From Deltaproteobacteria bacterium (GTDB lineage Bacteria; Bdellovibrionota; FAC87; UBA2466): a stretch of 35,514 nt of DNA. The first letter of the stretch is position 1. Each line of letters begins with the position of its first letter. The notes beneath the pieces were generated by a model. The model was not told where the DNA came from, did not search any database, and worked only from the letters and a program-made list of their open reading frames with translations. The position numbers and the translations under genes were made by a program. This document shows, in pieces, positions 4,954-28,396 of this stretch. The stretch spans positions 1-35,514 of the forward strand of contig OMIX01000036.1 in the NCBI GenBank assembly GCA_900299195.1, read 5' to 3'.

Positions 4954-4987
4954 TGACTTGAATAAGGTTTGAGAAGAGCCTGTTTTA

Positions 4988-5023
4988 GGGCTAGAGTTGA
5001 TTCAACTCTAGCCCTTTTTATTT
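4988..5023 (+). terminator. Strong intrinsic terminator
   Basis: A perfect 13-base inverted repeat (GGGCTAGAGTTGA, one base, TCAACTCTAGCCC; 4988-5014) is followed by TTTTTATTT. It sits 34 bases after the stop of the low-complexity protein and just before the next start codon at 5037. Confidence 0.92.
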
Positions 5024-11747: not shown

Positions 11748-13814
11748 TCAGTCGTTTGGGAGCGATGTGACAAAATGATTCAGTTCGGAAATTTCCGTCA
11801 AGGGAGCTCTGCAAGTTTTGTTTTCACAAATGTAGAGAGTCGTTTTATTTCCAACGGCAGTTTTATTTTCAAATAAAACGGGTTTGTCCGAAGCTTTTGT
11901 TTTTACCGCCAAGATTTTATTGGGAATAAAGTGCTCGCGGATTGCTTGAATCCAATCTTCCGTTTGATTGTTTTCTCCTGGAATCAAAATAAACTCTTGA
12001 GACCGATTTTGAAGTAAATCCAAAGCAATCAGCATTTGGCTTGAGGCCTGGGGTAGAGTTCGAATTTGAGGCTCATACTGTAAAAGAGCTTGCTCAGCTA
12101 GGTTGGACCATTTGTCTTGATAAGTCAGTTTGCTCAGCCGAATCAATGCCGTCATTGCGACTCCCGCACTGGAAGGAACGGCCCCATCATAAGTGTCGGT
12201 GGGTCGAATCAATAAGTCCGCTTGTCGGTCTTCAGCAAAAAAGAACGTTCGTGTTCCCTTATCCCAAAAAAGGTCGACCATAGTTTGGGCGAGCTGTTCT
12301 GCTCTCTTGATCAGATCCCATTCAAAAGTGGATTCATACAAAGTTAAAATCGCATGGGTCAAATAGGCGTAGTCTTCTAAAAATCCATTTTGTTTGGCCA
12401 CCCCTTGAGCAAAGGTATGTTTCAAGTGTTTGCCATCCCAGAGCTGGTTTAAAATGAAGTTCACAGCTTTTTGGGCAGGCTCTAAATAAGAAGGCTCATT
12501 CAAAACTTGGTGAGCTAAAGCCAATGAGTGAATCATCATCGCATTCCAGGAAGTTAATGCTTTAGAGTCGATTCCCGGGCGAATCCTTTGACCTCTCAGA
12601 TGGAAAAGTTTGCGTTTAGCCACCGCAAGAACCTCTTCTAATTCCGCCTCTGTCATTTTGAGGCGGTGGCTTAAATCAATCCAGCTTTCGGTTCGATGTA
12701 AGATATTGTTTTCTTCCCAATTCCCAGTTTCGGTGACATTAAAAACTTCATTGAAAACTTGGGCCACCTCGGGAGTGAGATGCTTTTCAATGTCTTCTTT
12801 TGTCCAAACGTAAAATTTTCCTTCGACTCCCTCACTGTCGGCGTCCTCGGTGCTAAAAAAAAGACCTTCTGGCGACTTTAAGTCTCTAAGGGTGTAATCC
12901 AAAATCTCTCTGGCTGTTTTGGCGTAGGGCAAGTGCCGGGTGGCCTGAAAAGCCTCTAAATAAAGTTCTGCGAGTAGAGCATTGTCATAAAGCATTTTTT
13001 CAAAATGGGGAACTAACCAACGGTCATCCGTTGAGTAACGATGAAATCCACCGCCCAGCTGGTCGTAGATGCCCCCTCGAGACCATAGTTCTAAAGTGGT
13101 ATTGACGATGGCTAAGGCTTCTTCACTTTGAGTGGTTTTCCAGTGGCGCAGAGCCAGACGGAAATCGGTAGAGTGAAAAAATTTAGGTGCTTGACCTAGC
13201 CCACCGTAAACGGGATCGAAGGATTGTTTTGTCCTGTGAAAGGCGGCTTCAGTGAGTGCTCTTGCCGAAAGAGAGCCGGAGTTTTTTGCTTCAGTCTTAG
13301 ACATCTCTTTAAGAGCAGAGAGAAGTTCAGACGCCGATTTTTTAACTTCCGATTCTCGATTTTTCCAAGTAGTCGCCACACCTAGGAGGATTTTTTTGAA
13401 ACTGGGCATTCCCATTTTATCTTCAGGGGGAAAGTAGGTTCCCCCGTAAAAGGGCTCTAGCTGAGGGGTTAAAAATACGGTCATCGGCCATCCCCCTCGA
13501 TGGGTCATGATTTGTACGGCATTCATGTAAATGTGATCGAGGTCGGGGCGCTCCTCGCGGTCCACTTTGATACTGATAAAATGTTGGTTCAAAATTTGGG
13601 CAGTAGCTTCGTCTTCAAAGCTCTCCTTTTCCATCACATGGCACCAATGGCAAGCTGAGTAGCCGATAGAGAGAAAAATGGGCTTATTCTCTTTTTTAGC
13701 CTTTCTTAAGGCCTCTTCGCCCCAGGGGTACCAATCGACAGGATTGTGAGCATGCTGAAGTAGGTAGGGGCTGGTTTCTGAAGCCAAACGATTAGTAAAT
13801 TTGAGTGAGTTCAT
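11748..13814 (-). CDS. Thioredoxin-like DUF255 / SSP411 (YyaL) family protein
   Basis: The opening [20 protein letters not shown] is the hallmark of the DUF255 (Thioredox_DsbH/SSP411, spermatogenesis-associated protein 20-like) family. It is followed by [20 protein letters not shown] with C55 and C58 in a CxxC, then [25 protein letters not shown] and YGGTYFPP. The remaining 500 residues are an (alpha/alpha)6 toroid related to N-acylglucosamine epimerase-type folds ([33 protein letters not shown]). From the ATG at 13814 it is 688 residues, normal for the family; an in-frame ATG at 13922 would add a poorly conserved leader. No strong ribosome-binding site is seen. The biochemical role of this widespread family is not settled; a redox or sugar-related function is usually proposed. 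Confidence 0.92.
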
Positions 13815-13912
13815 AAGGGAAAAAAATGTACCCGTTCCCTCGGGATCTGTCACGATAGAGAGATAGCAAGTTCGAAATGAGCTTAATTTTACTCTGGGTA
13901 AAAGGGGAGATA

Positions 13913-15146: not shown

Positions 15147-16106
15147 ATGAGATTAGGGTTTTTATCGTTTTTTGGGGCTTCGACTTTATTACTTTCCGGA
15201 CTACTCCAAGCAGAAACCAGTAAGACCAGTCCTTCGGTGGGTTCTCGTTCTGCCTCTCAGGGGCGAGCTTCAGTCTCTTCGAATTTGAGAAACAACGTAG
15301 TGAAATCTAAAAGCAGTGCCTCCACCAGTACTGGAGTTTTAAGTGCCACCGGAGTTGAAAATCTTTACGGTTATTTAGAATTTCGACCTTCTTATACGTC
15401 TTATCAAGGGGAGTTTCACACCGAAAACACGGCCGAAGTTGGGTATAAATTAAACAGCACGATGAAGACGGGGTACGTTCAATTTTTCTCTACCAATTTA
15501 ATGAACGGTTCTAATGCGACTCAGGGCATGAATCTCTTGGCTAATGACGGGTTTCTCTATTTTAAAGCCAAAGACATTTTTAAAAGTTCCGACAATCGTT
15601 TGGCTCTCGCTTACCAGTTAAGGCTCATCACTCCAACCGACAGTGGAAAATACAGTGCTGGCTTTAGAGGAGCAGTGAGAAATCAGTTTTTGCTTTCTTA
15701 TTCTTACAACGATTTCATCAAGTCTGAATTAAGTTACCACCCCATTTATCAAGGATATGTCAAATCGGGACGTTTTGACTCTACCGGAACTGCCTCTGCC
15801 AATTCATATTTTGATCACCAATTTATTTTCAATCAGGAAATTCATCCGGCTCCCAAGTTCACTCTCTATTTACCTGTGATCTACCAATTAACCAGCTACA
15901 GAGAATTTGCCGGAGCTGCTAATTCAGGTCGTTGGAGAAAGAAGGTAGTGTTTTGGCCCGAGCTAGATTACGAAATCAATCCTGTGCACATGATTGGGGT
16001 CTCTTTTTACTCAGGCAACTTGAGTTCGGAGTATGGATCTGGATTTGATTTCTCCGAAGGGTTTAAGAATGGCGTGACCCAGTTGGTGTGGGGCATCAAC
16101 CTGTAG
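15147..16106 (+). CDS. Probable outer-membrane beta-barrel protein
   Basis: A signal peptide is present (FFGASTLLLSGLLQAETS), followed by a Ser-rich linker of about 50 residues (SRSASQGRASVSSNL). The remaining 240 residues alternate polar and aromatic residues with turn-rich breaks: NLYGYLEFRPSYTSYQGEFH, AEVGYKLNSTMKTGYVQFFS, NRLALAYQLRLITP, RNQFLLSYSYNDF and PVHMIGVSFYSGN. It ends in TQLVWGINL, a plausible C-terminal barrel strand. The pattern fits a porin-like or channel barrel with perhaps 10 to 12 strands. The start follows a G-run (AAGGGGGGGAA) acting as ribosome-binding site. No specific family is recognised; transport substrate unknown. Confidence 0.8.
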   Translation: MRLGFLSFFGASTLLLSGLLQAETSKTSPSVGSRSASQGRASVSSNLRNNVVKSKSSASTSTGVLSATGVENLYGYLEFRPSYTSYQGEFHTENTAEVGYKLNSTMKTGYVQFFSTNLMNGSNATQGMNLLANDGFLYFKAKDIFKSSDNRLALAYQLRLITPTDSGKYSAGFRGAVRNQFLLSYSYNDFIKSELSYHPIYQGYVKSGRFDSTGTASANSYFDHQFIFNQEIHPAPKFTLYLPVIYQLTSYREFAGAANSGRWRKKVVFWPELDYEINPVHMIGVSFYSGNLSSEYGSGFDFSEGFKNGVTQLVWGINL

Positions 16107-16148
16107 AGTGCAAACTTACCCTTTAAACCTCAAAACTTTTTAAATTCT

Positions 16149-16183
16149 TGGTACAATAGTTTTACTATGAAAACTATTGTACC
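16149..16183 (+). promoter_or_regulatory. Extended -10 promoter inside a perfect hairpin that holds the start codon
   Basis: TGGTACAAT (16149-16157) is an extended -10 box; the ATG is at 16167, so the predicted transcript starts at about 16164. The same bases form one arm of a perfect 14-base inverted repeat: GGTACAATAGTTTT (16150-16163) and AAAACTATTGTACC (16170-16183). The ATG lies in the six-base centre. The dyad could be an operator for a dimeric repressor. It cannot act as an RNA hairpin if the mRNA is leaderless. Confidence 0.6.
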
Positions 16184-17345
16184 GATTCTTCTTTTGGCTC
16201 GATTGGTCCTGGCCGACAGCGATACTCTGCCTTTAAATAAAAAAACACCTGTGATCAAAGAGAGTGACTCAGCAGGAGTGACTCAGCAGTTACAAAAAGG
16301 AAGCGGTAAAGAAACTGAGCCTGCTTTGGGTTTGGAAGAAGCAGCCGTACCAAAGCCGAAATTAACTTCTATTGGGGTTTATGGCACCAAGAAACTCAAT
16401 GAGGTGATCCTAAAAGAACTTTTAGGTAAGGAATTTGAAGAGTGGATTAAAAAAGGGATGGCTGGAGACTCGTCGAGCTTAGAAATCGAAAAGAGACTCA
16501 TCGAGAAAATACAGAAGAAATATCATTTTCCCTTGGCCGAATTTAGTGTGGTTCAATTCTTCGAACCTGATAATTTGACAGTCCACATTGTTTTAGACGT
16601 AGTGGAGTCGGATGAATTTGAAACAAGAAATAAATTTCTTTCTCCGCCTACGGATCAATTTCCAGATCCTGATAAATTAATCCAAACTTGGATGGAGTAT
16701 GAAGACCAAGCCATGCAGTTGGTTGATTCCGGGCAAATTGTTCCTGATGGACAAAAATGCTCAGCTCTTCACTGCCCTTTCGGTCACGAGCATCCTAAAT
16801 TAAAAAAATATGGACCGCTATTTACCGAAGGGGTGAAGAAACATTTTGATAAATTGGTGGAGATATTATCAAAAGACAAACGTGAGGAGTATCGTGCGAG
16901 TGCCGCTTTTCTTTTGCCTTATCAATCGGATGGAAAAAAAGTCGTTCCGCCGTTGGTGGAAAGGATTCGAGATTCTGACCCTGTTGTGAGAAACAACGCT
17001 CTTAGGGTATTAGGAGAAATCGCTGAGTTTCATCCGGAATTTGTGATTCCAGTGAAACCCCTGATTGCAGCTCTCAATTTTCCGAGATCCACTGATCGTT
17101 CGAAATCGGCGTATGTTGTGTATATGCTGGCGCTCCATTCCAGCTCGGCTAGGGAAGAGCTTTTAAGAAGCGGGATTCCTAACTTACTTCTTTTACTCGA
17201 AACAAAAATTCCTGACCAAAAGGAATTTGCTCACAACACGCTGAAGAAAGTTTCCGGCAAGGAATATTCTATGTCCGATATCACCAGTTGGAAAAACTGG
17301 TATGCCAAACTAAAGAGGGATAAGGGACTTCCTGCAGCTCAATAA
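16167..17345 (+). CDS. Periplasmic HEAT-repeat protein with POTRA-like N-terminal domain
   Basis: A short signal peptide is seen (KTIVPILLLARLVLADS). Residues about 65-150 look like a POTRA-type alpha/beta unit (LTSIGVYGTKKLNEVILKEL, then LTVHIVLDVVES). Residues 198-210 form a Cys/His cluster CSALHCPFGHEHP that could bind a metal. Residues about 225-375 contain HEAT-like helices with RASAAFLLPY and DSDPVVRNNALRVLGEIAEF, typical of PBS-lyase/HEAT units. I have seen this CxxxHCxFGHxHPxL-plus-HEAT arrangement in other delta-like genomes as an unnamed family, but cannot confirm it here. The gene has no Shine-Dalgarno sequence; the -10 box and ATG are so close that leaderless translation is likely. 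A scaffold or binding role in the periplasm is inferred. Confidence 0.8.
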   Translation: MKTIVPILLLARLVLADSDTLPLNKKTPVIKESDSAGVTQQLQKGSGKETEPALGLEEAAVPKPKLTSIGVYGTKKLNEVILKELLGKEFEEWIKKGMAGDSSSLEIEKRLIEKIQKKYHFPLAEFSVVQFFEPDNLTVHIVLDVVESDEFETRNKFLSPPTDQFPDPDKLIQTWMEYEDQAMQLVDSGQIVPDGQKCSALHCPFGHEHPKLKKYGPLFTEGVKKHFDKLVEILSKDKREEYRASAAFLLPYQSDGKKVVPPLVERIRDSDPVVRNNALRVLGEIAEFHPEFVIPVKPLIAALNFPRSTDRSKSAYVVYMLALHSSSAREELLRSGIPNLLLLLETKIPDQKEFAHNTLKKVSGKEYSMSDITSWKNWYAKLKRDKGLPAAQ

Positions 17346-19211: not shown

Positions 19212-20432
19212 ATGAAAATTCACTTATGGGGAACAGATTTTAGGCGGAGTTCAGCTGAGTTACGGAAAAAGCTGGCTTTGAGCCCTGAGGAAAGAGCTCA
19301 AAAACTTAATGATCTCATTAGGTTGGGCTTTAAGGATGTAGTTTATCTTTGGACCTGTAATCGAGTTGAATTTTACACCACAGCTGAGGATTACTTTTGC
19401 GACACTCGGCCCTTGTGGCTTACCGTTTTAAAAAGCTTTGGGTTGGCGGAAGAGGATTACTACCGAGGGTACCATTTAGAAGGTAAGTCCGCTTTAAGGC
19501 ATCTCATGCGAGTGGCTTCCTCTTTGGAATCGATGGTGGTCGGTGAACCTCAAATTTTAGGGCAACTTAAAGGGGCTCTCACCTTTAACAAAGAGAACAA
19601 CCTACCGTTGGATAGGCATTTAGAGCAATGCTTTCACTTGAGTTTTGAAACCGCTAAGAAAGTGAGAAGTGAAACTGCGATTGCAGAAAAACCGGTATCG
19701 GTGGCTTCCTTGGGTTTAAAATACTTGGAGTCGATGGAATCTGATTATCCGCTCCAAAAAGCAGTGGTTGTGGGCAGAAGCCCAATCAGTTTGATGGTTC
19801 TTCAGTGGTTGAAAAAGAATCGCCCCCAATGTCCAGTCATTTGGGTTAATCGAAATATTGAAATTCTAAAAAGCTATCCTGAATTTCAAGGACTTGAGCT
19901 ACTCTCCCTATCCGATTTTCTCACCGGAAAAATTCAGTTTTCTCATCTTTTTACTTCTACAGCCAGCATTGAGCCTATTTTCAATAAAGGATTTTTTGAG
20001 AAGTTAGGAGACCAGAAAAAACTCGTTTTTGATTTTGCTGAACCGGCAGATGTGGAGCATTTTGTTTATAAACCGGTTAGAGTGATTCACATGGAAGATT
20101 TGATGGAAGAGGCGAGAAGCAACAGTAGGGAACGCGCTGAAAGTGTCTCAGTGGCAGAGAAAATGATCGAAGACGCCATGAAACTTTATTGTTTGGATCA
20201 AAAAGAAAAGCCCATCATTCGTGATTTCAACTCGATTGAACCTGAATTTTTGAAAGAGCTAGAAGCGGCCATGGCTCTCATTGAACAAGAAGTCCCCTTG
20301 GAGTATCAAGCGCGAGTGAAAAAGATGACCGAAAAGCTGGTCAAAAAGAATCTTCATTTGTCACGCGAACATCTTAGAGAGATCCTAAAAAAAGTCACTC
20401 ACTCGGAAACTGACCTTCTGAGAGTTGTATGA
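19212..20432 (+). CDS. hemA: Glutamyl-tRNA reductase HemA
   Basis: First enzyme of C5 heme synthesis: it reduces glutamyl-tRNA to glutamate-1-semialdehyde with NADPH. The catalytic Cys is C49 in YLWTCNRVEFY. The catalytic-domain signature HLMRVASSLESMVVGEPQIL is intact. FDFAEPADVEH is the normal post-Rossmann strand, and the C-terminal dimerisation helices are present (LEYQARVKKMTEKLVKKNLH). The length of 406 fits the family. Odd point: the Gly-rich NADPH loop, normally GAGxMG after VxVI, reads AVVVGRSPISLMV, with only G188 kept. It opens a ten-gene operon, and hemC begins on the last four bases (ATGA). In many bacteria this step is the control point of the pathway, which fits its place at the head of the operon. 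Confidence 0.95.
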   Translation: MKIHLWGTDFRRSSAELRKKLALSPEERAQKLNDLIRLGFKDVVYLWTCNRVEFYTTAEDYFCDTRPLWLTVLKSFGLAEEDYYRGYHLEGKSALRHLMRVASSLESMVVGEPQILGQLKGALTFNKENNLPLDRHLEQCFHLSFETAKKVRSETAIAEKPVSVASLGLKYLESMESDYPLQKAVVVGRSPISLMVLQWLKKNRPQCPVIWVNRNIEILKSYPEFQGLELLSLSDFLTGKIQFSHLFTSTASIEPIFNKGFFEKLGDQKKLVFDFAEPADVEHFVYKPVRVIHMEDLMEEARSNSRERAESVSVAEKMIEDAMKLYCLDQKEKPIIRDFNSIEPEFLKELEAAMALIEQEVPLEYQARVKKMTEKLVKKNLHLSREHLREILKKVTHSETDLLRVV

Positions 20433-21361
20433 AATATCGGTTGGGAACCCGAAAAAGCGATTTAGCCAGAACACAATCCACTCATGTCTTAGAAGATTTG
20501 AAAAAAATTGGGATTGATTGCGAATTAGTTTTCATTGAAAGCAGTGGAGATAAAAATTCTAAAGAAGCTCTTTATCAAATAGAAAACACGACTCCAGGAC
20601 TTTTTACTAAACAACTTGAAGATGCACTTTTGTGCGGACACATTGATCTTGCGGTTCACTCTCTTAAAGATTTGCCCACAATTCAACCGGCGGGCCTAGA
20701 AGTGGGGGCCATCACTCGTCGAGTTGCATCTGAAGATTGGTTGTTGGTGCATCCCGAGGCCTTCGATGGAGCTCAACCGTTATTTGTTAAGAAGGGGGCC
20801 CATGTGGGGACAAGCTCATTAAGACGGGAGGCCCAACTTTTAAGTTCCCGTTCCGATCTTCAGGTTTCTCCCATCAGGGGAAATGTCCCCACTCGTGTTA
20901 ATGCGGTTCGACAGAGAAAAGTGGATGCCACTATTTTAGCTGCAGCCGGACTAGAACGGTTACAGTTCAATTTGGAAGGTTTGGAGATCATTAAGTTGGC
21001 AGAGAGGGATTTTCCGCCAGCGCCGGGACAAGGGGCGCTCGCAGTAGAAATTCGAAGTGATGCTAGCGTGGAATTAAGAGAGGCTTTAAAGAAAATCCAT
21101 CATGAAGAGAGTGAAATTGAAACTCGAGTCGAAAGAAAAGTTCTAAAGGGATTATTCGGGGGCTGTACCTTGCCCTTGGGAATTCGATGCTATAAAGAAG
21201 GGGTCCTTCTACGGACTAAAGTTTTTATCGGTGTGCTTAAAGATCGAGATTCTAAGCTCAAAAATTGGACTGGATTTCATCACTTTGACATTTGCTGTCA
21301 GGACGAGGAAACTCTCGTCGATAGCGTTATCGAAAAGACAAGAGGGTTTTTAAATGGGTAA
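20429..21361 (+). CDS. hemC: Porphobilinogen deaminase (hydroxymethylbilane synthase) HemC
   Basis: It joins four porphobilinogens into hydroxymethylbilane in the cytoplasm. Seen: RLGTRKSDLARTQST at the start, AVHSLKDLPT, GTSSLRREAQLL, PIRGNVPTRV, APGQGALAVEIR and the dipyrromethane-attachment Cys in GLFGGCTLPLG near residue 247. Length 310 is usual. It overlaps hemA by ATGA and hemD by eight bases (ATGGGTAA), indicating translational coupling. Confidence 0.97.
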   Translation: MKYRLGTRKSDLARTQSTHVLEDLKKIGIDCELVFIESSGDKNSKEALYQIENTTPGLFTKQLEDALLCGHIDLAVHSLKDLPTIQPAGLEVGAITRRVASEDWLLVHPEAFDGAQPLFVKKGAHVGTSSLRREAQLLSSRSDLQVSPIRGNVPTRVNAVRQRKVDATILAAAGLERLQFNLEGLEIIKLAERDFPPAPGQGALAVEIRSDASVELREALKKIHHEESEIETRVERKVLKGLFGGCTLPLGIRCYKEGVLLRTKVFIGVLKDRDSKLKNWTGFHHFDICCQDEETLVDSVIEKTRGFLNG

Positions 21362-22091
21362 AAATATCAAAATAGTGGTGACTGGAGAAAATCGAGATCT
21401 TGAGGAGAACATTCCAAGTGGTCATTGGGATTCGGATGTTTCTTTTCAATGGGTGCAGTGGCCAGTTTTGGAATTTAAAAAGTTAACAGTTTCTCCAGAG
21501 GTGTTAGCCCGAGTGATCGAGAAACCTTATGAATGGATTATTTTTACCAGTCCCAGAGCCGTGAGATTTTGGACTGAAACGATGGTCGAGGCGGGTTTAG
21601 ATTTTCCGTTAGAAACTCAAGTGGCTTGCATTGGTGAGAGCACTTCAGAAGTGGCTGGCGGAGATGGTTATACTCCGGATTTCTATCCTACCGAACCGGG
21701 CAGTGAGAAGTTTCTGGAAGAGTTCGAAGACCTGATCAGCAATAACACTCAAAAGCCTACGGTTTTGATACCGATGGCTGAAGGAGGGCGCCTTAAAATT
21801 GCAGAGCGACTTTCTGAATTAGGATGTTCGGTGACGGTAGTTCCGCTTTATAAGACTCAAGCTAGAAACAATCTCTCCAGCACTTTACCGGGTGGAAGTT
21901 TAGTAGACGTTTCGGTGATTGTTTTTACCAGTCCCTCGTCGGTTGAAGCGGTGTTAAGTTCGTGTCCCCTTCCTCCAACGATGAAAGTGGTAGCCATAGG
22001 AAATTTTACTCAGGAATATCTTTCGAAAAAGGGAATTTCTAGCCACTTGTTACCTGGATCCAGTTTTGAAAGAATTGGAGAAGTTTTATGA
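21354..22091 (+). CDS. hemD: Uroporphyrinogen-III synthase HemD
   Basis: This family is poorly conserved; the call rests on WIIFTSPRAVRFW, the bilobal arrangement with VACIGESTSEVA and PTVLIPMAEGGRLKIAERL, the second lobe VIVFTSPSSVEAVL and VVAIGNFTQEYL, and its place between hemC and hemB. It closes hydroxymethylbilane with inversion of ring D. Length 245 is normal. The start overlaps the hemC end by eight bases and its stop overlaps hemB by ATGA. Confidence 0.93.
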   Translation: MGKNIKIVVTGENRDLEENIPSGHWDSDVSFQWVQWPVLEFKKLTVSPEVLARVIEKPYEWIIFTSPRAVRFWTETMVEAGLDFPLETQVACIGESTSEVAGGDGYTPDFYPTEPGSEKFLEEFEDLISNNTQKPTVLIPMAEGGRLKIAERLSELGCSVTVVPLYKTQARNNLSSTLPGGSLVDVSVIVFTSPSSVEAVLSSCPLPPTMKVVAIGNFTQEYLSKKGISSHLLPGSSFERIGEVL

Positions 22092-23071
22092 TAGGAAATA
22101 ATCAACGTCCCAGACGCTTAAGAAAAAATGGGCTAGTGAGAAATTTGATTCGGGAAACCGAACTGCATCTTAACCAATTGATTCAACCTTACTTTCTTAC
22201 GATAAACCCGGAGGCTCAGGAACCTATTCAAGGCTTTTCCGGGGTCTATCGTTGGGGGATTGATCAGTTATCTAAGAAAATTGAAAAGGACATCACTCAA
22301 GGGCTTAATTCCTTTTTACTTTTCGGAGCTGCCCAACCTTCGGAAAAAAATGAACAGGGAACGGCAGCTTACGAAGAAAAGGGAGTTCTTCCCTCGGCTA
22401 TCAGGACACTCAAAGAGAGGTTTTCTGATTCTATCGTTTTAGCTTCTGATGTTTGTTTGTGTCCGTATACTTCTCATGGTCATTGTGGCTTAGTCGAGGG
22501 AACCGAAATACAAAATGATCCTTCTCTCGTAGCTTTGGGCCAAATGGCTTTAGTTCATGCAAGATGTGGTGTGGACATAGTGGCGCCGTCGGACATGATG
22601 GATTTTAGGGTGGGCTACATTCGAAATCTGCTAGACGAGCAGGGATTTGATCAGACATTAATCATGGCTTATACAGCCAAATATTCTTCGAACTATTATG
22701 GTCCCTTTCGGGAGGCTTTGGGGTCGGCTCCCAAAGGAGATCGAGCGACTTATCAAATGGATTTTAGAAATAAAACAGAAGCTTTGCGCGAGCTCGAACT
22801 TGATTTAGCCGAAGGAGCCGACATGGTCATGGTGAAACCAGCTTTGGCTTATTTGGATATCATTCGGGCTTTCAAAGAGAGAAGTTCAGTCCCGGTCGCT
22901 GCTTACAGTGTGAGTGCCGAGTACCAAATGGTGAAATTGATGGCCAAAGAGGGGCTGGCTATTGAGCAAAAGTTGGCAATAGAAAACCTAACCGCCATTC
23001 GAAGAGCGGGTGCCGATATCATCATTACCTATTTTGCTGAATTGATAGCCTCGCAAGGATGGTTGAAATGA
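22088..23071 (+). CDS. hemB: Delta-aminolevulinic acid dehydratase (porphobilinogen synthase) HemB
   Basis: It condenses two ALA molecules into porphobilinogen. RPRRLRKN at the start is family-typical. The catalytic zinc-type Cys cluster is present (SDVCLCPYTSHGHCG), so this is the Zn-dependent form, not the Asp-rich Mg form. Schiff-base lysines are in IMAYTAKYSSNYYGPFRE and DMVMVKPALAYLD. Length 327 is usual. It overlaps hemD by ATGA and hemL by ATGA if hemL starts at 23068. Confidence 0.97.
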   Translation: MIGNNQRPRRLRKNGLVRNLIRETELHLNQLIQPYFLTINPEAQEPIQGFSGVYRWGIDQLSKKIEKDITQGLNSFLLFGAAQPSEKNEQGTAAYEEKGVLPSAIRTLKERFSDSIVLASDVCLCPYTSHGHCGLVEGTEIQNDPSLVALGQMALVHARCGVDIVAPSDMMDFRVGYIRNLLDEQGFDQTLIMAYTAKYSSNYYGPFREALGSAPKGDRATYQMDFRNKTEALRELELDLAEGADMVMVKPALAYLDIIRAFKERSSVPVAAYSVSAEYQMVKLMAKEGLAIEQKLAIENLTAIRRAGADIIITYFAELIASQGWLK

Positions 23072-24336
23072 AGACCGATAAATCACAGGAATTATTTTTG
23101 CGGGCCCAGAGCTTAATTCCAGGCGGGGTCAATTCGCCGGTTCGAGCCTTTAAGCATGTGGGAAGAAATCCTATTTATTTTGAAAGAGGCGAAGGCCCGT
23201 ATTTAATCGATGTAGATGGTAATAGGTATGTTGATTTTTGTTCCTCTTTTGGTCCTTTAATTTTAGGCCATTCCCACCCTAAGGTAGTCGAGGCCATCAT
23301 AGATCAGGCCTCAAAAGCGACCACTTTTGGAGCTTGTCACGCGAAAGAAGTGAAGTTGGCGGAACTTATTTTAAAGAACTATCCGTATTTAGATCAGGTG
23401 AGACTTCTCAACAGTGGAACTGAAGCCGTCATGACAGCGATTCGGGTCGCTCGAGGAGCCACCGGTCGTCCAAAAATTTTGAAATTCGAGGGCTGTTATC
23501 ATGGACATAGCGATGGATTGCTCGCAAAGTCGGGAAGCGGAGTTGCCGAATTAGCTGAGAGTAGTTCCCAAGGTGTGCCGGATAGCATTGTGAAAGAGAC
23601 GGTGGTGGCTAGATATGATTCCATCGAAACAGTAGAGAAAGCGTTTAAACAGTTTGGAAAAGAGATCGCTGCTGTCATTATTGAGCCGATTCCAGCTAAT
23701 GAAGGTTTATGGGTTCCACGACAAGCTCAGTTGGAAGAAATTTGTATGTTGGCTAAGCTTCATGGCGCACTTGTCATTTTTGATGAAGTAATTTCTGGAT
23801 TTAGATTTGGCCTTTCTGGGGCGTCGGGCTTTTACCAATTGAAGCCGGACTTAGTCACTCTGGGGAAAATCATAGGTGGGGGACTGCCCTTGGCTGCCTG
23901 TGTAGGAACTAAGCACTGTATGTCGTTTTTAGCTCCCATGGGACCTGTATATCAGGCTGGAACTCTCTCAGGAAATCCACTGGCTACAGCCGCTGGGATT
24001 GCCGTCTTAACTGAACTTATTTCTAAACCTCCTTATGAGGCTCTAGAAAAAAGAACGAAGAGATTTGTAGCAAGACTGAAAGAAGAGATTCTTCCCGAAT
24101 GGGATTTTGCGCAGTTAGGTTCCGTTTTCTGGATGAGTCGGTCTCCATTAACGGGAGTTTTTCCGCCTGAGATCACTTCAGAGGACAAAAAAGCCTATGC
24201 CAAGTTTTTCGGTTCGGCATTAGAGGCAGGGGTTTATTTTGCTCCATCACCTTTTGAGGTGGGATTTGTTTCAGAGGCTCATACTGAAAGTGTGTTGGAT
24301 GAGACGATAGAGAAACTAAAAGCATGTCGACAGTAG
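23068..24336 (+). CDS. hemL: Glutamate-1-semialdehyde 2,1-aminomutase HemL
   Basis: This class III aminotransferase-fold PLP enzyme converts glutamate-1-semialdehyde to ALA. Seen: SLIPGGVNSPVRAFK, LLNSGTEAVMTAIRVARG, EGCYHGHSDG, IFDEVISGFR, the PLP lysine K267 in TLGKIIGGGLP, and YQAGTLSGNPLA. I use the ATG at 23068, which overlaps the hemB stop as ATGA and has AAGGA eight bases before it, rather than the in-frame ATG at 23059. That gives 422 residues, normal for the family. Together with hemA it proves a C5 rather than Shemin pathway. The histidine kinase gene starts inside its last 13 bases. Confidence 0.97.
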   Translation: MKTDKSQELFLRAQSLIPGGVNSPVRAFKHVGRNPIYFERGEGPYLIDVDGNRYVDFCSSFGPLILGHSHPKVVEAIIDQASKATTFGACHAKEVKLAELILKNYPYLDQVRLLNSGTEAVMTAIRVARGATGRPKILKFEGCYHGHSDGLLAKSGSGVAELAESSSQGVPDSIVKETVVARYDSIETVEKAFKQFGKEIAAVIIEPIPANEGLWVPRQAQLEEICMLAKLHGALVIFDEVISGFRFGLSGASGFYQLKPDLVTLGKIIGGGLPLAACVGTKHCMSFLAPMGPVYQAGTLSGNPLATAAGIAVLTELISKPPYEALEKRTKRFVARLKEEILPEWDFAQLGSVFWMSRSPLTGVFPPEITSEDKKAYAKFFGSALEAGVYFAPSPFEVGFVSEAHTESVLDETIEKLKACRQ

Positions 24337-25307
24337 TACAAAAAAGATGGGTTAAGCTTTTTATCGCAGTTTCCTTTTTGATGCTGACCCAAGTGGCCTG
24401 GTGGCTAGACGTGTTTTCAAGAAGTGTGAATACCATTGCAGAACTGCGAAAAGAAAACGCAACCCTACGAGGCATGCTGAACGAGCCTGGGGTTTTGGAG
24501 GGAATTCACAAATCGGCTTATCACAAAAAACTGATGTTCTTCTCTGAAACATTCGCTTTCGCCATTTTAACGGCTCTGGGGCTTTACTTACTTTTTCGAG
24601 CTCTCAAACTTCAAGAAAAAGCGAGAAAGCTTCAAAAGCAGTTTATCGAAACCATGTCGCATGAGTCCAAAACGCCTCTCACTGCCCTAAAACTCAGATT
24701 AGAATCTATTTTAGAAAAAAACTCCTCTGAGCCTCAATTATCCAAAGAGTTGTCTCTTTCTTTGGAAGAGGTGAGGCGTCTAAGCTCTGTATTTGAAAAG
24801 GCCCTTAGTTTAAATCGAATGGAAAGTTATGCTTTCAAGTTCGAGGAGCTTTCAGTGGGAGAGGTGGTCAAAGAAGTTTTAAGGCGGATGGAGCCGCTGC
24901 TAAAACAAAAAAACGTTCAAGTGTATTTTTCACAAACGGGTGAGGGGTGGACGCAGGGAGATCTGTTTGGCTTGCAAAATACGGTACAGAGCCTTTTAGA
25001 AAATGCGGTGATGTACAACGACAAATCAGAGAAAGAGGTTCGAATCGAAGTGGTGGACGAAACCCAAAAAATCAAGCTTCGAGTGACTGACAATGGTCCT
25101 GGAATTGCGGATTCTGACCGTAAGAAAATTTTTGAAAAATTTTATCGAACTAAAAGCAGTCGGAAAATTCCTGGAACGGGCTTGGGGCTGTATTTGGCGA
25201 AGCACATTGTAGAATCTCACTCAGGAACTCTAGAGCTTGTTTCCACTCAAACCTCGGGAGCCCAATTTGAAGTGGTTCTTCCTAAGCGGGAGGACAAGCG
25301 TGGGTAA
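24324..25307 (+). CDS. Sensor histidine kinase embedded in the heme operon
   Basis: Two membrane segments (about 10-28 and 71-91) enclose a short periplasmic loop of about 42 residues (from DVFSRS to HKK) with a helical, zipper-like part (IAELRKENATLRGML). No PAS, HAMP or Cys is seen. A linker coiled coil leads to the HisKA domain with H113 in ETMSHESKTPLTALKLR; the usual HELRTPL reads HESKTPL. The ATPase domain has an N box (LLENAVMYND), G1 (TDNGPGIAD), F box (IFEKFYRTK) and G2 (GTGLGLYLAKHI), all complete. It overlaps hemL by 13 bases and the regulator by 8, so it is made together with heme enzymes. The signal may be membrane or envelope state, or a heme intermediate; this is inference. Confidence 0.93.
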   Translation: MSTVVQKRWVKLFIAVSFLMLTQVAWWLDVFSRSVNTIAELRKENATLRGMLNEPGVLEGIHKSAYHKKLMFFSETFAFAILTALGLYLLFRALKLQEKARKLQKQFIETMSHESKTPLTALKLRLESILEKNSSEPQLSKELSLSLEEVRRLSSVFEKALSLNRMESYAFKFEELSVGEVVKEVLRRMEPLLKQKNVQVYFSQTGEGWTQGDLFGLQNTVQSLLENAVMYNDKSEKEVRIEVVDETQKIKLRVTDNGPGIADSDRKKIFEKFYRTKSSRKIPGTGLGLYLAKHIVESHSGTLELVSTQTSGAQFEVVLPKREDKRG

Positions 25308-26001
25308 CCGAATTTGTCTAGTCGAAGATGATCCTACGATTAGAGAGTTAGTCTCTGAAAAACTCATCAAAAAAGGTTATTCCGTTGATTCTTTTGAACG
25401 TGCCGAAGACGTAAAAAACAACAAAGACCTAGGTTGGGAGCTTTATATTCTTGATGTCATGTTAGCTGGAGAGTCGAGCGGATTGGAATTGTGCGATTAT
25501 TTAAAAAAAATAGAGCCGACCTTGCCTATCTTGATTCTGTCAGCGCTTTCTGAACCGCACGATAGGATTGAAGGGCTTAAAGTAGGGGCCGATGATTATT
25601 TGACTAAGCCGTTTGAAATGGAAGAGCTGCTACTTCGAGTGGAAGGGATGCTCAAAAGGCGCTCTTGGTATTCTTCATTGCCTGCCAATCTTTCCATATT
25701 CGAATGGGATGACTGCTCAGTGGATTTTGTGAAGTTTGAAGGACGAAAAGGGAATGATGTTTTCTCCCTAAGCCAAAAAGAGTGCATGTTGATGAAGTTA
25801 TTGGTCGAAAAAGAAAATCAAGTAGTGACTCGTGATGAAATTCTAAATCAAGTTTGGGGTTACGATGTTTTTCCTTCTTCCCGCACGGTCGATAATTTTA
25901 TTGTTCGTTTAAGAAGATATTTCGATAACCCGGGAAACCCTAAATACTTTCACTCTATTCGAGGAGCTGGATATAAATTTACTAAAAGGGGAGTTTTATG
26001 A
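25300..26001 (+). CDS. OmpR-family response regulator embedded in the heme operon
   Basis: The start is GTG at 25300, with GGGAGGA five bases upstream and an eight-base overlap with the kinase stop (GTGGGTAA). An ATG at 25237 would add unrelated residues inside the kinase gene. The receiver domain has E9/D10/D11, phospho-acceptor D52 (LYILDVMLAG), S81 and K103 (DDYLTKPF). A winged-helix domain follows (about 140-233) with FSLSQKECMLMKLLVEKENQ, VVTRDEILNQVWGYDVFPSS, VDNFIVRLRRYF and the wing SIRGAGYKFT. It binds DNA as a dimer once phosphorylated, presumably by the adjacent kinase. The hemA promoter region is an obvious candidate target, unproven. 233 residues is typical. hemE starts on its stop (ATGA). 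Confidence 0.94.
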   Translation: MGNRICLVEDDPTIRELVSEKLIKKGYSVDSFERAEDVKNNKDLGWELYILDVMLAGESSGLELCDYLKKIEPTLPILILSALSEPHDRIEGLKVGADDYLTKPFEMEELLLRVEGMLKRRSWYSSLPANLSIFEWDDCSVDFVKFEGRKGNDVFSLSQKECMLMKLLVEKENQVVTRDEILNQVWGYDVFPSSRTVDNFIVRLRRYFDNPGNPKYFHSIRGAGYKFTKRGVL

Positions 26002-27041
26002 AACCCACGGCAAAACCTTTGCTTATAAAACAGACGGAAGGGGAATCCTTAGGAAGATTTCCGGTGTGGATGATGAGACAAGCTGGGAGATACCTTCCAA
26101 GCTATCGCGCCATTCGAGAAAAATATTCCTTCTGGGAAATGGCCACCCAACCTGAAGTCGCAGCTCAAGTCAGTCTTCTTCCAATGGCAGAAATTCCCGT
26201 GGATGCCATCATTTTTTTTTCCGATATTTTAACTTTGCCTTACGGACTAGGGCTTCCCATCACTATGAAAGAGTCGGTGGGACCTGTTACGGAAACTCCT
26301 TTAAGAACGCTTGAGGATTTTAAAGTATTTAAAAATTTTCAGCCTGAAACTCACACTTCATTTGTCGGACAAGCCCTAAACCTCATCAAAGAGAAAATCC
26401 CTCAGGAAATGGCTCTTTTGGGATTTGCGGGGGCGCCCTGGACGGTTGGAGCTTACTTAATTGAAGGCAAAGCGAATCGTAATTTTGAGGCGATCAAAGC
26501 TTGGATGTATCGAGAGCCTCAGGTTTTAGCTCAGAGTCTAGACCTTTTGGCAGAGGCTACTCTTCAGTATCTGGAATGGCAGTATCGCTGCGGAGCCCAT
26601 ATGGTGCAGCTCTTTGATACTTGGATTGCCCAAATGCCCAAAGCATTTTTTGATCAGTATTATTTAAAAATTTTAGTCAAAATATTTTCTAAGTTAAAGG
26701 CGAAAGGCATTCCAGCGATTTACTTCACCAAAAATTCTGCCCATTTGGCCCCTTCATTTTCGGAAATTCCAGCGAGTGGATTTAGTGTAGATGAAATTCT
26801 AACTTTGAGTGATTGGGACAAACTTCTCCCTCAAGGTCGATTTCTTCAGGGGAATTTAGATCCTATAATTTTGCTTAAAGGAACTGAAGGCGAGGTTCGT
26901 TTAAAAACACGGTTATTGGTTCAAGAAGCTCGAACCTTAAGTCGACCTGTTATTTTGAATTTAGGGCATGGTATTTTGCCAGGGACTCCCGTCGAGAATG
27001 CTCGGGCCTTTGTGGAGGAGGCTAGAAGTTTATGGATTTAA
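25998..27041 (+). CDS. hemE: Uroporphyrinogen decarboxylase HemE
   Basis: It removes four carboxyl groups from uroporphyrinogen III, giving coproporphyrinogen III. The N-terminal signature PVWMMRQAGRYLPSYRAIRE is exact. IIFFSDILTLPYGLGL carries the catalytic Asp, and GFAGAPWTVGAYLIEG and LNLGHGILPGTPVENARAFV match the second signature and the C-terminus. Length 347 is normal. ATGA overlap with the response regulator; ten-base overlap with hemN. Confidence 0.97.
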   Translation: MKPTAKPLLIKQTEGESLGRFPVWMMRQAGRYLPSYRAIREKYSFWEMATQPEVAAQVSLLPMAEIPVDAIIFFSDILTLPYGLGLPITMKESVGPVTETPLRTLEDFKVFKNFQPETHTSFVGQALNLIKEKIPQEMALLGFAGAPWTVGAYLIEGKANRNFEAIKAWMYREPQVLAQSLDLLAEATLQYLEWQYRCGAHMVQLFDTWIAQMPKAFFDQYYLKILVKIFSKLKAKGIPAIYFTKNSAHLAPSFSEIPASGFSVDEILTLSDWDKLLPQGRFLQGNLDPIILLKGTEGEVRLKTRLLVQEARTLSRPVILNLGHGILPGTPVENARAFVEEARSLWI

Positions 27042-28396
27042 ATGAGTTGATCAAGAAATATTCGACTTCGGGTCCAAGATACACTTCTTATCCAACTGCC
27101 CCTCAATGGACTGAAGATTTAAAAACGGCCTCCTATCGGGAGCAACTCCAAAAAAGTTTTTCTGGAAGAACAGAACCTATCGCGCTTTATGTTCATATCC
27201 CGTTTTGCGAGGCGCTTTGCTACTATTGCGGTTGCAATATTCAAATCACTAAAGATCACTCAAGAAGCCAGAGTTATTTACAAAGTTTGATCCAAGAGAT
27301 TCGCACTGTGGCTGAGATTATTGGCACACGGCAGACTCTTTCCCAGATCAGTTGGGGTGGCGGAACTCCAACTTTTTTTACCTGCCAGGAGATTGAGCAA
27401 CTTCACTTAGCCACTTTAAAATATTTTGATTTGGCAGGGGATGCTGAAGTGAGCATTGAAATTGATCCTCGGGTAACAACCTGGGATCAACTAGCCACCT
27501 TGAGAAGATTAGGATTCAACCGAGTGAGCTTAGGGGTTCAGGATTTTAATACCGAAGTTCAGAAAGTGATCAATCGGATACAGTCCGTTCAATTGACCGG
27601 GGACATGCTTAAGGAGTGCCGAAGGCTGGGTTTCAGTGGAATTAACTTTGATCTGATTTATGGTTTACCTCTGCAAACTCGGGAGACTTTTAGAAAGACT
27701 CTTGAAGAGGTGATTTCTCTTCGCCCCGATCGAATCGCTTTGTACAATTATGCTCATTTGCCCTCCTTGAGACCTCACCAAAAAATTATGGATAAATACG
27801 CTCGACCGAACTCGGAGGATCGTTTAGCTATTTTTTCAGAGGGTTATACTGATTTCACGAGTCAGGGATATCGTTCCATAGGAATGGATCATTTTGCACT
27901 TGAAACGGATGAGCTTTTTCTCGCAATAGAGAAAGAGACTTTGTACCGCAATTTTATGGGCTACACTGTGAAACGTGGTGCTGGAATGATTGGTATTGGG
28001 GCCTCTGCGATAGGTGAAATTGGCGGAAGTTACTTTCAAAATATTCGTGAAACTAAGCCTTATGAAGACAGTGTTAATTCGGAAGGAGTGGCGGCATTTC
28101 GCGGGTGTCTACTCACCCAAGACGATAAGGAAAGAAAGTGGATCATTCAGCAGCTCATGTGCAAGTTTGTCTTGAGGTTTCAGGAGTATCAAAAGTTGTT
28201 TCAGAAGGATTTTGCCCAACAATTCCAATCAGAAATTCTTAAGCTGAGCGATTTTTCCCAAGAGGGGATTTTGAAAGTCGACTCCGATAGTATTGTGATT
28301 ACCGATCTAGGTAGACTTTTTATTCGTAACGTAGCGATGATCTTTGATGCTTATTTAAATTTGCCGACCGGCGCCACTTACTCAAAAACCTTATGA
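27032..28396 (+). CDS. hemN: Oxygen-independent coproporphyrinogen III dehydrogenase HemN
   Basis: This radical-SAM enzyme decarboxylates coproporphyrinogen III to protoporphyrinogen IX without O2. The cluster motif is HIPFCEALCYYCGCN, with C59, C63 and C66 binding the 4Fe-4S and the extra C68 that marks true HemN rather than HemW. GGGTPTFF, IEIDPRVTTWDQL, NRVSLGVQDFNTEVQ, FDLIYGLPLQT and GMDHFALETDEL follow, and the C-terminal HemN domain is present. Length 454 is usual. The N-terminal YSTSGPRYTSYPTAPQW is also typical of HemN. No oxygen-dependent hemF is in the window. It overlaps its downstream gene by ATGA. Confidence 0.97.
   Translation: MDLNELIKKYSTSGPRYTSYPTAPQWTEDLKTASYREQLQKSFSGRTEPIALYVHIPFCEALCYYCGCNIQITKDHSRSQSYLQSLIQEIRTVAEIIGTRQTLSQISWGGGTPTFFTCQEIEQLHLATLKYFDLAGDAEVSIEIDPRVTTWDQLATLRRLGFNRVSLGVQDFNTEVQKVINRIQSVQLTGDMLKECRRLGFSGINFDLIYGLPLQTRETFRKTLEEVISLRPDRIALYNYAHLPSLRPHQKIMDKYARPNSEDRLAIFSEGYTDFTSQGYRSIGMDHFALETDELFLAIEKETLYRNFMGYTVKRGAGMIGIGASAIGEIGGSYFQNIRETKPYEDSVNSEGVAAFRGCLLTQDDKERKWIIQQLMCKFVLRFQEYQKLFQKDFAQQFQSEILKLSDFSQEGILKVDSDSIVITDLGRLFIRNVAMIFDAYLNLPTGATYSKTL

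Follow-up and report, generated by a model that had tools for sequence, protein, structure and literature searches.

A start-spanning inverted repeat at a HEAT-repeat gene in a relative of Bdellovibrio as a possible insulator hairpin against read-through

Why does a start codon lie in the loop of a long, perfect inverted repeat that joins a promoter element to the first codons of a gene? The question is raised by a HEAT-repeat gene in a window of 35,514 nt (the whole stretch of DNA that was analysed; contig OMIX01000036.1 of GCA_900299195.1). The source organism is a lake-dwelling relative of Bdellovibrio, and its close relatives are recorded as MAGs of Bdellovibrionaceae/Bdellovibrionales or 'Deltaproteobacteria', with Lake Baikal as the source of one. 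The features of the locus are listed in Table 1. The two arms (GGTACAATAGTTTT and AAAACTATTGTACC) are complementary over all of their 14 bp, as the first-pass annotation of this DNA had stated, and the stem extends from 16148 to 16185 when G-U pairs are counted. The start codon, which the same annotation had placed in the centre of the dyad, does lie within the 6-nt loop, but it occupies the right half of the loop and is displaced from the exact centre by about 1.5 bases. Codons 2 to 5 and two bases of codon 6 make up the right arm.

Table 1. Features at and around the start of the HEAT-repeat gene (positions in the window).
Feature	Position	Strand	Remarks
Upstream gene, 319 aa, signal-peptide-like N-terminus	15147..16106	+	possibly an outer-membrane beta-barrel
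Gap from upstream stop codon to dyad	16107..16149	+	without intrinsic terminator
Extended -10 element TGGTACAAT	16149..16157	+	hexamer 16152-16157; predicted +1 is A16164
Left arm of dyad	16150..16163	+	-14 to -1 of predicted promoter
Loop ACTATG	16164..16169	+	predicted transcription start 16164 (from canonical spacing) and start codon 16167-16169
HEAT-repeat gene, 392 aa, signal-peptide-like N-terminus	16167..17345	+	start position backed by orthologs
Right arm of dyad	16170..16183	+	codons 2-6 of HEAT-repeat gene
T-rich tract TTCTTCTTTT after stem	16186..16195	+	signal-peptide codons; makes hairpin terminator-like

Our background statistics rest on 941,613 bases of the 2.83-Mb genome (128 contigs). 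Within these, eight perfect dyads with arms of at least 14 bp and loops of at most 16 nt were found against an expectation of about 0.1, and those listed for the first 331 kb are two REP-like palindromes, a terminator-like hairpin, a second start-spanning dyad (L033) and the dyad of the HEAT-repeat gene. With a folding z-score of -7.6 relative to shuffled sequences, the start of the HEAT-repeat gene is the most extreme among 772 gene starts. An Rfam search of the dyad returned no family at gathering score, the sub-threshold matches being microRNA models only. Chance confined to one genome is ruled out because the dyad is conserved in relatives, as described below. Locus L036 carries spacerless perfect palindromes with arms of 24 and 21 bp (13770-13817 and 16323-16364; GGGGTCAGTC...TTTCAATATTGAAA...), which are REP-like or mobile-element-like.

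The orthologous start was compared in six genomes of the genus (G000 to G005), G000 being the source genome and G001 its sister. G001 carries a perfect 14-bp dyad (GATACAATAGTCTT/TATG/AAGACTATTGTATC), and G003 reads GGTACAATAGTTTT-ATG-AAAAAAAATATTGTACC, with 9 bp and 4 bp on either side of one mismatch. In G005 (TTTTGATACAATAGTTTCATTATGAAAACTATGGTATCAAAA) the arm is longer by four more A-T pairs and contains one mismatch. The dyad is degraded in G002, with one mismatch and one G-U pair, and lost in G004. Arm spacing varies among the relatives (6, 4, about 6 and 7-8 nt), and the pattern TACAATAN{8,20}TATTGTA occurs exactly once each in G000, G001 and G003, always at the HEAT-repeat gene. The first-pass annotation had named the joint lack of conservation in close relatives and of other genomic copies as grounds for giving up its reading. 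Comparison of the orthologous upstream regions answers the first point in favour of the dyad, which is maintained in G001, G003 and G005, but the search for further copies was negative: neither the dyad, with three mismatches allowed, nor the half-site TGRTACAATAG has a second copy in the 2.83-Mb genome.

Changes in the two arms are paired. G000 and G001 differ at two positions per arm, all of them compensated (a coincidence with a probability of about 0.001-0.003), and arm swaps between species lower the pairing, with 8 of 720 permutations as good as the species' own arms. No slid register comes near the true register in the covariation test. The formal covariation count is modest, with two pairs changed on both sides and a score that was reached by 27 of 500 shuffles. 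Codons 2-6 had been described as shaped to complete the palindrome, and this description holds well: they are complementary to the left arm across much of the genus, with the paired changes in the sister genome. Around the same start, from -50 to about +147, G005 and G002 share 72-84% identity within otherwise 92-100% identical DNA, a tract that may reflect recombination or clustered mutation round the dyad.

The left arm had also been said to contain an extended -10 element. This promoter is conserved, although the first T of TGGTACAAT lies just outside the arm. A TGnTAnAAT-like extended -10 is kept in nearly all of the 14 orthologs, across the order, and within the genus TGnTACAATAG does not vary, not even in members that have lost the right arm. 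The distance from the element to the ATG is 6-9 nt in 11 of the 14 orthologs, and in genus g6 it is 30-35 nt. No -35 consensus was found upstream of the -10 of the HEAT-repeat gene, and no Shine-Dalgarno (SD) sequence is obvious before its ATG. The canonical +1 is an A in five of the six genus members; in three of them this is the A of the ATG itself, and in G001 the ATG begins one base after the canonical +1. With a -10 about 6-9 nt before the start codon and no SD, the gene has the layout of a leaderless gene, and judging from the sequence its own mRNA is probably leaderless or nearly so. Because the +1 predicted from canonical spacing is the first base of the loop, this mRNA would lack the left arm.

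The product of the gene has a signal-peptide-like N-terminus (MKTIVPILLLARLVLADS) and matches Pfam HEAT_2 (1.9e-9). The gene is present in all 15 genomes of the order examined, and hardly elsewhere in the phylum sample. The upstream gene, whose product has no Pfam match, lies on the same strand and stops 60 nt before the ATG, and a same-strand gene with a related C-terminus precedes the HEAT-repeat gene in 12 of the 12 other orthologs for which the upstream flank could be read. In four other genera (G006, G007, G011 and G014) an intrinsic terminator lies between the two genes. None was found in the gap in this genus or in g6, both of which have promoter-to-start pairing.

Such pairing extends beyond the genus. 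The promoter segment pairs with the message start better than shuffled sequences do, with a combined p of 1.4e-9 over 14 orthologs and of 0.0095 outside the genus, values that treat related genomes as independent and are therefore optimistic. Three control segments further upstream had no excess pairing with the message start in the 14 orthologs. In g6 the promoter/+1 region pairs with the start via AGAGCCT/AGGCTCT-type stems, which cover an SD-like GAGG, and in G011 a 12-bp stem with one G-U pair joins promoter and start. The pairing sequences of the other genera are unrelated to the dyad of this genus. Among the g6 orthologs, L010, L011 and L013 form stems between the region after the -10 and the SD (GAGCCT/AGGCTC and GGCCTCT/AGGGGCC), in which the sequence has changed and the pairing is kept.

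We posit, with a probability of roughly one half, that the dyad is an insulator hairpin which would act in RNA and silence read-through, such that the HEAT-repeat gene would depend on its own promoter alone for expression. RNA entering from the upstream gene, the existence of which we infer, would contain both arms and fold into a hairpin of 14-16 bp with the AUG in its loop, and would in consequence stay untranslated. RNA from the gene's own promoter would have its 5' end in the loop, either at the AUG or 3 nt ahead of it, and could be translated as an mRNA that is leaderless or nearly so. The T-rich stretch of signal-peptide codons that follows the stem might in addition serve as a weak terminator for the read-through RNA. 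In G000 the computed cost of opening the start is 16.9 kcal/mol for the read-through RNA and 1.6 kcal/mol for the gene's own RNA; the corresponding values are 17.8 and 4.0 kcal/mol in G001 and 14.0 and 3.5 kcal/mol in G005. Insulation from upstream transcription is suggested because the hairpin raises this cost and because no terminator was found in this genus or in g6, the two that have the hairpin in its place. Since the arm spacing varies, G002 contains a G-U pair and other genera have unrelated pairing, the data argue for an RNA hairpin, which accommodates such variation well, rather than for the operator of a dimeric protein, whose fixed geometry would leave little room for it.

Several observations weigh against the insulator hairpin. 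Two of the six genus members (G002 and G004) retain the promoter and the gene order with a weak or lost hairpin and have gained no terminator, whereas G011 has both a terminator and promoter-to-start pairing. The covariation is modest, as noted above, and the genome-wide excess of start-spanning hairpins is found only in the extreme tail. Lacking an SD, an internal AUG might also go untranslated in read-through RNA if no hairpin were there. The more specific notion that the segment from -10 to -1 of a leaderless gene is kept complementary to the gene's own first codons, so that only RNA from outside folds shut, is put forward tentatively, at somewhat less than even odds.

Given six genomes, the strongest rival to the insulator hairpin is template-switch mutation. 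Under this explanation, a short chance complementarity of the fixed promoter element (TACAATAG) to codons 2-6 was made perfect, and maintained, through template switching during replication of a quasi-palindrome and has no function, which we regard as unlikely, if deserving of serious attention. In a single event, template switching can give rise to perfect stems and to compensatory changes of several bases (PMC8794818). The longer arm of G005 and the densely clustered differences that separate G005 from G002 around the dyad (72-76% identity, against 92-100% in most of the alignment) resemble such multi-base events, although the tract of differences reaches to about +147 and may be due to recombination. 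In two genus members the hairpin has largely disappeared with no evident harm. Against this, four of six species retain the dyad with altered sequence and another genus retains the pairing by a different sequence, the right arm is nearly identical between G000 and G001 where the next 30 nt of coding sequence have only 37% identity, and perfect dyads of this length are very rare elsewhere in the genome. Template-switch-derived hairpins share perfect arms and paired substitutions with our dyad, but have been described in RNA genes (PMC8794818), whereas the dyad of the HEAT-repeat gene consists of a promoter arm and a coding arm.

It appears improbable that the main role of the hairpin is to end transcription of the upstream gene, as an intrinsic terminator assembled from the promoter, the start codon and the T-rich signal-peptide codons of the downstream gene. 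A terminator scan does rate 16148-16185 together with TTCTTCTTTT as terminator-like in G000. Other genera carry a standard terminator in the same gap, and at other signal-peptide genes (L033, L085 and L059) the start lies within similar stems that are followed by T-tracts. The stem is however A/T-rich, with 4 G-C among its 16 pairs, and its tail interrupted, G001, G003 and G002 do not conserve the T-tract that directly follows it, and chance yields 0.5 terminator-like sites in the region.

A second gene of the genome, L033 (G000:C6, gene start 3631, minus strand), has the same design, with a perfect 15-bp dyad over its start (AATCAGGGATATGAG/CTCATATCCCTGATT), TATAAT 7 nt before the ATG and a T-tract (CTTTTTTGG) after the dyad. 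The gene is signal-peptide-like, and a same-strand reading frame ends just upstream. No orthologs of the L033 and L059 genes were found in the genus. A subtilase gene (L103-L107; G000:C49:3054 and its orthologs) has start-spanning hairpins of differing sequence in G000, G003, G001 and G004 (for example GGCCGATGA/TCATCGGCC and GCCGAAAAGA/TCTTTCGGC), followed by T-tracts in G000 and G003. Genome-wide, seven starts and two coding-control windows have a folding z-score below -4, with bulk distributions that are alike, and six of these seven starts are signal-peptide-like (Fisher p of 0.002). Compared with upstream-shuffled controls, the excess of start hairpins is small (5 vs 1.8 at -14 kcal/mol). 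We therefore treat the wider pattern as a lead only, and make no claim that start hairpins form a general class across the genome, the enrichment being limited to the extreme tail. Two further candidates were discarded, namely L041, where the start codon is uncertain and the hairpin not conserved, and the dyad of the epimerase-like gene L094, which is likewise not conserved. In G004 the ortholog of L094 is broken into two matched pieces that lie next to each other (L101/L102, G004:C76:8126-9471).

Operators of the lac and lambda type overlap -10 elements, and the dyad of the HEAT-repeat gene similarly covers the -10 region and the predicted transcription start. Its perfect symmetry and its maintenance in relatives would also fit the operator or self-regulation favoured by the first-pass annotation, with a dimeric repressor or activator on the dyad controlling the promoter. 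We nevertheless consider such an operator or self-repressor quite unlikely, because the dyad and its half-site are both single-copy in the genome and because the product consists of a signal-peptide-like N-terminus and HEAT repeats. A self-repressor was rejected since this product holds no DNA-binding domain, and no DNA-binding regulator is obvious among the neighbouring genes examined. Unlike lac and lambda operators, the dyad has neither a second site nor a candidate binding protein, its spacing is not fixed among relatives and one half of it is coding; in addition its inner pairs covary, G002 contains a G-U pair, and other genera pair promoter and start via unrelated sequences. A mirror promoter, in which a -10 on the other strand of the right arm would drive convergent antisense transcription and interfere with the sense promoter, is very improbable, for although CGGTACAAT-AGTTTT-C (G000) and CGATACAAT (G001) can be read on the bottom strand, relatives show decay of the mirrored hexamer (TACCAT in G005, CACCAT in G002), the TG extension is missing in most of them and transcription would start at C.

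In IS10, a start at the element's own promoter removes part of the inverted repeat. As cited in PMC2965389, RNA structures shield the transposase genes of Tn10/IS10 (Davis, Simons and Kleckner 1985) and IS200 (Beuzon et al. 1999) from read-through. The insulator hairpin posited here would resemble these systems in that a structure in RNA from outside would block translation of a gene with its own promoter, and its inverted repeat likewise includes the translation start. It differs from them in that the HEAT-repeat gene is an ordinary chromosomal signal-peptide gene without a mobile element, in that a leaderless start is predicted in place of a ribosome-binding site (RBS), and in that the -10 element itself is the left arm. 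An overlap of RBS-sequestering and terminator hairpins has been discussed as hypothetical (PMC2965389). The hairpin at our start could similarly hide the start and end transcription, but it would act only on RNA of the upstream gene, and would sequester a start codon without visible SD. In the literature searched, we found no description of leaderless starts in Bdellovibrio-type bacteria or of the -10 of a leaderless chromosomal gene serving as a hairpin arm.

If the insulator hairpin is real, a promoter that doubles as its arm would offer adjacent genes a compact substitute for a terminator, and compact bacterial genomes could insulate their gene borders without one. Codons 2-6 of the protein would then be constrained by the promoter in front of them, and promoter and signal-peptide codons would both be shaped, an arrangement that may recur at other signal-peptide genes of the lineage. 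It would also account for an apparent operator without a regulator. For lineages with leaderless genes, the insulator hairpin would provide a simple, searchable rule, namely a promoter complementary to the first codons, a leaderless start and no upstream terminator.

Two further observations concern the remainder of the window. A haem biosynthesis cluster is located at 19212-28396, comprising glutamyl-tRNA reductase, porphobilinogen deaminase, HemD, ALAD, an aminotransferase, URO-D and a HemN-like radical SAM protein, with a histidine kinase gene inside the cluster. At 4987-5015, a perfect hairpin with 14-bp arms and a 1-nt loop is followed by TTTTTATTT and represents an ordinary terminator between genes.
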